Shown piece by piece: positions 63,137-64,000 of a stretch of 64,000 nt of DNA. The stretch's first letter is position 1, and each line of letters starts with the position of its first letter. Source of the stretch: Candidatus Poribacteria bacterium (lineage in GTDB: Bacteria; Poribacteria; WGA-4E; WGA-3G); contig JAPPFM010000059.1 in NCBI GenBank assembly GCA_028821605.1, positions 310,001 to 374,000 of the forward strand, in the 5' to 3' direction. Position numbers and translations under genes: made by a program. The notes under the pieces are model-generated. The model saw only the letters and a list, made by a program, of their open reading frames with translations. It was not told the origin of the DNA and ran no database searches.

Positions 63137-63226
63137 AGGACTTACGCAGCTTCTTCGCTGGCGAGGTTTGGAACCTCGCCAGCGGCGTGTAGGAACCGCT
63201 GTTGGTAAGAAAATTGCGTAAGTCCT
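63137..63226. mobile_element. 90-bp MITE with 12-bp terminal inverted repeats
   Basis: AGGACTTACGCA (63137-63148) and TGCGTAAGTCCT (63215-63226) are perfect terminal inverted repeats. The interior carries a GCTGGCGAGGTT/AACCTCGCCAGC hairpin (63157-63183) of the window's palindromic family. ATTCTT flanks both sides (offset by one base on the left) and may be a target duplication. Confidence 0.75.
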
Positions 63227-63296
63227 ATTCTTATACTAAGCTTTGAACAATTTTCGAGCGGGGCGGGAGACCTCGAAGAAACACCCCAGCAAAAAC

Positions 63297-63593
63297 CCCC
63301 TACGAAAAACACAGAGGTGTAGGGGTTGGGAATGTAATACAAGGAATGGATTTAGTCTATTCCCAGACTAAATCCCCAATCCGCAGGAAAGCGTTTGTTT
63401 TTCTATGAGTGTCGTGAACGTGGGAAAATCATAAAAAAATAGACAGACCTTTGAAAACGCAACGACCATCGGACAAGAATTGTCCAAACTTTAGTATTCT
63501 TATAGTAAAATCCGAAAATATGTTTACATGCCGCGATAGGTCCCCACATTACACCCTTGTAGGGGCTGGGTTTCCCAGACCGTTCGGTCCTAC
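63297..63593. repeat. Palindromic repeats in the 63.2-63.6 kb gap
   Basis: CCCCTAC and GTAGGGG (within 63297-63325) form one hairpin. A second, more elaborate structure at 63559-63593 has outer GTAGG/CCTAC arms with inner CTGGGTTTCCCAG and ACCGTTCGGT hairpins. They are in a gene-poor stretch (63090-63959). Confidence 0.5.
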
Positions 63594-63754
63594 CGCGTGT
63601 CCAAGTAATTACGGGATCTACTATAACACATTCTTATGGTTTGCTCAATATGACTTCATTTCTGGTTCGCAATCCATATTAACTTGAACCTTATGCTCTA
63701 TTTTGGTATACTATCCGCAAATAGTATATGGTATATGCCAAACAGAAGGAGAGA

Positions 63755-63958
63755 TTGTCAATAACCCCCCTAAAGGACGGGCTTGTGGAAGATGGTAGCC
63801 ACCCTATAACTTCTACGAGGGAAACTTATTGACTACAGTAATATATCACAGTATCTTGGTGTGGCAACCAGAATAATGTTTCGGATGCTCCCCAAGTCTG
63901 ATTCCTCTTAGATACTGTGATCTGGATGGGGCAATACAGACTCGAAAGAGGTTTACGT
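63755..63958 (+). ncRNA. HEARO-type omega RNA of IscB
   Basis: The region between CAATAACCCCCC and the IscB coding start resembles the HEARO/omega RNA that precedes iscB genes. Direct structural support: TCACAGTATC (63846-63855) pairs perfectly with GATACTGTGA (63911-63920), CCTCTT pairs with AAGAGG (63904-63909/63946-63951), AGTCTG pairs with CAGACT (63896-63901/63937-63942), and a TGGT/ACCA hairpin lies at 63857-63870. GGATGCT (63883-63889) can also pair with AGCATCC (63988-63994) inside the ORF. Both ends are approximate. Confidence 0.75.
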
Positions 63959-63959
63959 C

Positions 63960-64000
63960 ATCTTCGTTCCAGTTGTAGATAAGAATCAGCATCCTCTAAT
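63960..64000 (+). CDS. iscB: IscB RNA-guided endonuclease, N-terminal fragment (cut by window end)
   Basis: The frame ending at the window edge reads IFVPVVDKNQHPL, followed by AT, which matches the conserved start of IscB (V-F-V-x-D-x-N-x-x-P-L-M-P, PLMP domain). IscB is the HNH/RuvC nuclease ancestral to Cas9 and uses the omega RNA encoded upstream. No ATG, GTG or TTG occurs in this frame after the stop at 63918-63920, so either a near-cognate AUC at 63960 is used or the gene is damaged at its start. Only 13 residues are visible. Confidence 0.65.
   Translation, partial: MFVPVVDKNQHPL

Follow-up and report, generated by a model that had tools for sequence, protein, structure and literature searches.

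Which RNA-guided system lies at the right edge of this stretch of DNA, and why is it placed directly in front of another gene? The window, by which we mean the whole stretch of 64,000 nucleotides that was analysed (G000:C59:310001-374000), ends inside an element of 1265 bp that runs from window position 63757 to L003:3022, with its right end beyond the window; the contig continues for a further 67 kb past the window end. An IscB-omegaRNA system had been proposed from the sequence for the last 246 bases. An OMEGA-type RNA together with a PLMP/RuvC protein is indeed present, but the name IscB did not survive: the system is an ordinary IsrB, of a known kind, that had been misnamed. IsrBs are RNA-guided nickases, relatives of IscB and Cas9 that lack HNH. 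As read from the sequence, the element has an omegaRNA of ~200 nt with two pseudoknots, a 335-aa IsrB that has PLMP, RuvC and TAM-interacting regions and lacks HNH, and an exactly defined insertion site. The main features are as follows.

63684 to 63712, plus strand: promoter-like TTGAAC-17-TATACT, upstream of the guide (consensus scan)
63737 to 63756, plus strand: predicted 20-nt guide GCCAAACAGAAGGAGAGATT, which is the host gene's displaced 5' leader and includes the Shine-Dalgarno AAGGAG (empty-site comparison)
63757 to 63956, plus strand: omegaRNA (HEARO-like) scaffold (cmscan with RF02033, covariation with n = 89, boundary from the empty site)
63960 to 64000, plus strand: start of isrB, codons for IFVPVVDKNQHPLM, the ORF running on to L003:2968

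The protein is an IsrB

The first residues of a PLMP-domain protein had been recognized at the window edge, and this was confirmed at 63960-64000, where an ORF of 335 codons opens with ATC and continues off the window. The LMP of the PLMP domain is invariant in 112 copies, and the alignment with DtIsrB (Desulfovirgula thermocuniculi, 8dmb; PMC9581776) starts at residue 3. A phmmer search of the PDB gave DtIsrB as the best match (1.7e-35, residues 3-280), with two IscBs weaker (3e-11 and 9e-07). Similarly, a 25-sequence profile matched DtIsrB across 289 positions (3.6e-42) and IscBs only with the N-terminal part. Based on the top PDB match and the missing HNH, the protein is an IsrB, and its 335 aa are close to the family size of about 350 aa.

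An IscB, that is a PLMP-RuvC-HNH nuclease with an omegaRNA, would account for part of this, since the PLMP domain, RuvC-I, the bridge helix (here RRELRRGRR) and a HEARO-type RNA are common to IscBs such as OgeuIscB (7xht), whose chains match the N-terminal half. IscB, however, carries HNH between RuvC-II and RuvC-III, and here Pfam finds RRXRR (PF14239) alone. The score with the NCBIfam IscB model is 87, short of the required 175, and E153 of RuvC-II and H221 of RuvC-III are just 68 residues apart, so that space for an HNH is lacking. Extension of the contig to the right, which had been recommended as a search for HNH and RuvC motifs, recovered RuvC (D60, E153, H221, D224) in the downstream ORF and no HNH; the expectation held for one domain and failed for the other. 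The sequence past the window end refutes IscB, and we give that reading practically no chance.

The four RuvC residues are invariant in 112/112 intact copies and median dN/dS is 0.12 (238 close pairs), indicating that the IsrB family is maintained by selection. Modelling with AlphaFold2 on the basis of 25 related sequences gave a poor structure (pLDDT 49). The window protein resembles DtIsrB in its PLMP domain, its split RuvC with bridge helix, its absence of HNH and its size (~340 aa).

The omegaRNA and its two pseudoknots

A HEARO-like RNA had also been predicted, and cmscan with RF02033 located it at 63757-63956 over the whole model (1-211), with 33.8 bits and an E value of 4.4e-05. The Rfam check therefore succeeded as a covariance-model match and fell short of the gathering score of 83 bits. 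Among 15 related loci scanned in the same way, five scored 32-38 bits and the rest gave nothing at E 0.01. These low scores place the lineage outside Rfam acceptance; what we have is a clear IsrB protein and RNA system below Rfam's threshold. Covariation was assessed in 89 distinct aligned copies, with the named helices counted against shuffles.

63757 to 63761, plus strand: 5' strand of stem S1 (partner 63829-63833); pairing in 80% of cells, with 3 pairs showing double changes
63798 to 63801, plus strand: GCCA of the adaptor pseudoknot, in the SL2 loop (partner UGGC 63862-63865)
63847 to 63855, plus strand: 5' strand of stem S2 (partner 63911-63919); 95% paired, 59 double-change cells
63862 to 63865, plus strand: UGGC of the adaptor pseudoknot, in the SL4 loop (covariation, 89 copies)
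63881 to 63901, plus strand: SL5 stem-loop; stem 99% paired, 35 double-change cells, CCCCA in the loop
63890 to 63894, plus strand: CCCCA of the nexus pseudoknot, in the SL5 loop (partner UGGGG 63927-63931, after S2)
63941 to 63951, plus strand: terminal hairpin CUC-GAAA-GAG(G), carrying the isrB Shine-Dalgarno (AGAGG) (sequence and folding of the window copy)

The double changes in S1, S2, SL4 and SL5 were reached by no shuffle, and SL4 pairs in 95% of cells. Both pseudoknots covary as well: GCCA/UGGC is paired in 95% of cells with G-C to A-U double changes, CCCCA/UGGGG is paired in 96%, with A-U replaced by U-A in 26 copies, and 0/500 shuffles reached either. The omegaRNA directly upstream, with covarying adaptor and nexus pseudoknots, is a trait of IsrB.

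DtIsrB likewise has its omegaRNA upstream, with two pseudoknots. Its scaffold, however, is 262 nt as against ~200 nt in the window copy, and its pseudoknots join SL2 to SL5 and SL4 to a single strand, whereas ours join SL2 to SL4 and SL5 to a single strand. The arrangement of pseudoknot partners is identical to the window copy's in CsIsrB, K2IsrB and BbIsrB (PMC9581776), a likeness drawn from published description rather than from sequence, and the window copy differs from all three in belonging to a Poribacteria lineage.

A helix between GGATGCT and AGCATCC had been thought to extend the RNA into the ORF and thereby to couple RNA folding with translation. Both motifs are present (63883-63889 and 63988-63994), GGATGCT being part of the SL5 stem-loop, but only 51% of cells in the 89 copies are paired, compared with 50% after shuffling, and we regard the helix as chance. 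Coupling by this route can be dropped; by analogy, however, RNA folding may affect translation through the terminal hairpin that holds the isrB Shine-Dalgarno, as the SL7 hairpin of DtIsrB holds a Shine-Dalgarno (PMC9581776). The terminal hairpin received no covariation support in the 89-copy alignment, which is itself poor in that region.

Insertion site, predicted guide and TAM

The gene downstream of the element encodes a xylose-isomerase-like TIM barrel and starts at L003:3023. Close relatives of this gene occur in nearly all genomes of the genus; for 29 of them the upstream sequence was inspected, and the element was absent each time. The empty site of the nearest relative (99% identity) reads ATGCCAAACAGAAGGAGATATT^ATGGCAACAC, that is GCCAAACAGAAGGAGATATT followed directly by ATGG, while the filled site in the window reads ATGCCAAACAGAAGGAGAGATT, then the element from GTCAATAACC to GAAGATATAG, then ATGGCAACAC. 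Comparison of the two therefore defines a 1265-bp insertion, free of duplication, exactly between the Shine-Dalgarno AAGGAG and the ATG. The C46 copy, which precedes an aldolase-like gene, has the same arrangement, the empty site in relatives being CAAAAACAGAGGAGCAATTC^ATGAG. A short fixed motif adjoining the element and the absence of target duplication at both empty sites are traits of IS200/IS605-type insertion; subterminal hairpins with a CTAAAG loop are visible at both ends.

Across 115 distinct sites (the copies have common ancestry, but the sites differ), the right flank was ATGA in 84, ATAA in 10, GTGA in 10, ATGG in 8 and other in 3, so that RTGR is found in 102/115; the last element base was G in 109/115. 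The displaced host leader, with its Shine-Dalgarno, is the predicted guide. Its 20 nt differ at one position from the empty site of the sister, and no other exact match was found in the genome. Since the guide is followed by ATGG in the empty site, ATGG is the predicted TAM. An NTG(A/G) TAM, as suggested by these insertion sites, is in keeping with the NTGA/NTG TAM of known IsrBs, including the NTGA-kind TAM of DtIsrB (PMC9581776).

Identity of the predicted guide with the neighboring gene's leader would also suit a domesticated regulator without nuclease activity that, like the TnpB-derived TldR proteins, is directed by its guide to the promoter region of the host gene. The invariant RuvC residues argue against this, as do the varying insertion sites among copies and the empty state of the relatives read at two sites, which leave no conserved regulatory locus; moreover, the TAM is missing beside the guide at the filled site. 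We consider such a regulator very improbable.

Insertion between Shine-Dalgarno and start codon

With the exact site in hand, we asked how often elements of this family sit before a gene. The right flank opens a frame of >=60 codons in 70/115 distinct sites (61%), 69 of them with a start codon; frames shifted by +1 and +2 were open in 2 and 15 of the 115 sites. Among the window's RTGR sites that lie outside genes, 39/216 opened such an ORF (18%; Fisher p about 1e-14); as this control draws on a single window and crude gene calls, the effect size is approximate. Such an ORF was accompanied by a Shine-Dalgarno within the final 18 nt of the left flank in 47/112 insertions (42%), against 15/216 control sites (7%; Fisher p about 8e-14).

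In the start-codon insertions, the left flank pairs with the anti-Shine-Dalgarno at a mean of -5.4 kcal/mol. A replacement Shine-Dalgarno was not found in the right end, where the value was -1.2 kcal/mol, weaker than the shuffled -2.2. The distance from the isrB stop to the host start is 26-30 nt in 63/70 start-codon insertions and 54 nt in the window copy. At least two cyanobacterial plasmid elements, from Stanieria and Leptolyngbya (L254, L255), also have a right end that adjoins an ATGA start codon; their proteins are 52-54% identical to ours and their omegaRNA is likewise upstream. In both, the right end brings GGAGG or GGAG to a place upstream of the host start, where it may serve as a new ribosome-binding site; the Poribacteria right ends have no such motif.

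The habit could be a passive by-product: the transposase would cut at RTGA, ATGA is often a start codon, and insertions that break genes would be lost to selection. The target motif, RTGR or ATAA, fits the NTGA/NTG TAM of known IsrBs (PMC9581776). The excesses over control sites in both comparisons point the other way, with the reservation that other selective filters may contribute to them. On balance, we rate a passive origin at even odds.

Literature searches, whose results did not include the original HEARO and OMEGA papers, did not turn up any previous description of IscB/IsrB elements inserting at start codons. The HEARO paper is said to have already named ATGA/GTGA as the integration motif, and priority for start-codon insertion is therefore not established. 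The insertion habit and the series of TAM residues described below deserve follow-up.

Natural variation in TAM-reading residues

L003:2900-2911: IsrB residues 314-317, which covary with flank bases 3 and 4 (112 copies)

With G as the third flank base, residue 314 is always R (102/102 copies), and the intact copies that lie before ATAA all have Q there (8/8). L035 is a ninth case in agreement, and the switch had two or more separate origins. For residue 317, R was seen in 8/10 copies with G at the fourth flank position, the window copy included, and one of Q, T, L or F in 101/102 copies with A. In DtIsrB, the bases G3 and A4 are recognized by R323 and Q326, respectively, and the Q326R variant accepts G (PMC9581776). 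The window copy differs from DtIsrB in lying before ATGG and in having Arg where Q326 would be, and its flank matches the NTGG TAM of BbIsrB (PMC9581776). Based upon these observations, we predict that 314 and 317 are natural TAM switches equivalent to R323 and Q326, an assignment by spacing and place, as the alignment with DtIsrB ends at residue 291.

The search for these columns was post hoc; nonetheless, they are the positions that the DtIsrB structure predicts. Further columns (e.g. 299) also set the ATAA group apart, and the fourth-base comparison includes few independent switches, with one contrary and one neutral among four independent pairs. The predicted switches are directly testable and could be of use in retargeting IsrB nickases.

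Family and state of the window copy

The source genome holds eight copies of the element, the other seven being 69-80% identical to the window copy. Relatives were found in 37/60 related genomes, at 1-20 copies each and mostly in one genus, and those that bear names are Candidatus Poribacteria MAGs; identity to the cyanobacterial plasmid IsrBs reaches 51-54% at best. These copies form a natural experiment, in which a 5'-guided OMEGA element takes its guide, and presumably its promoter, from the leader of a host gene. A solo omegaRNA at L170:1373-1720 (G000:C19 near 22884) has a scaffold and a right-end-like hairpin before ATAA, with isrB missing between them. A pattern match at L171 was dismissed as chance.

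The ATC start of the window copy is the sole case in 117 copies, nearly all others having ATG, with one GTG and one TTG. Judging from this codon, the copy's own IsrB may be poorly made. The copy could be decaying, the change from ATG to ATC having stopped efficient translation, so that its RNA, if used, would be served by IsrB from other copies. The rarity of ATC, the seven further copies in the genome and the existence of a solo omegaRNA agree with this; on the other side, the 335-codon frame is open with all catalytic residues retained, and ATC could be a sequencing error in the MAG. We find decay somewhat doubtful.

The 5' two thirds of the window copy are about 76-93% identical to ATGA-type copies, while no match above 68% was found for its TAM domain and right end. 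The copy may thus be a mosaic in which TAM domain and right end were swapped as one module. Over L003:2800-3022, identity to L006 drops from about 0.9 to 0.5.

Proposed mechanism

Taken together, these analyses favor, at a probability of about 93%, an IsrB-type OMEGA element inserted between Shine-Dalgarno and start codon, for which the host leader would serve as guide and nicking as the means of retention. The exact empty sites at two copies, and the sharp ends and RTGR flank across the 115 sites, support this reading. Counting against it are the ATC start, with a window copy that is possibly impaired, the HEARO score below the Rfam cut-off and a tnpA partner that was not found in the genome.

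No promoter within the element could drive transcription of a 5' guide; the promoter has to lie in the flank, and insertion in a gene leader supplies one. The TTGAAC-17-TATACT site is probably the promoter of the host gene, judging from its sequence; a comparable -10 box lies at the matching place upstream of the TIM-barrel gene in many insert-free relatives. One transcript from this promoter would comprise the leader, the omegaRNA, isrB and the host gene, and the leader 5' of the scaffold, with the displaced Shine-Dalgarno, would act as guide. The IsrB-omegaRNA complex would nick the empty allele on the sister chromosome, where the leader is followed by an RTGR TAM (ATGG in this case). Repair would then use the filled chromosome as template, so that copying the element back is favored. 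A retention model of this type is known for TnpB and IscB elements. The filled site would be spared because the element, and not the TAM, adjoins the guide. Mobility would depend on a Y1 TnpA acting in trans.

We propose more tentatively, and leaning somewhat against it, that capture of leaders is the practice of the whole lineage. Insertion between Shine-Dalgarno and start would let host promoter and leader provide the transcript and a 5' guide that the element itself cannot encode. The host gene, deprived of its Shine-Dalgarno, would become translationally coupled to isrB, and loss of isrB would be penalized. A change of target motif would come about by joint exchange of TAM domain and right end.

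Transposase genes and other repeats

A Y1 TnpA of its own would be expected of an IS200/IS605-type element, but no such gene was found on the contigs of the eight element copies. The genome's two Y1 genes lie on C37 and C12, apart from every copy, and the repeats near the C37 gene differ from the element's ends; neither gene was accepted as the partner. The C37 gene (L050, G000:C37:2409-2753) has CCCCGTAGGGGCGGCAT repeats on its flanks and is probably a REP-associated transposase rather than the partner of the IsrB element. A snoR145 match at window positions 63326-63433 (25 bits, E 0.12, cut-off 57) was attributed to chance. Intergenic REP-like repeats, bounded by ACTTACGCA and TGCGTAAGT, lie at window positions 63138-63228 and at L170:1144-1264, and repeats of this kind occur at several places in these genomes.
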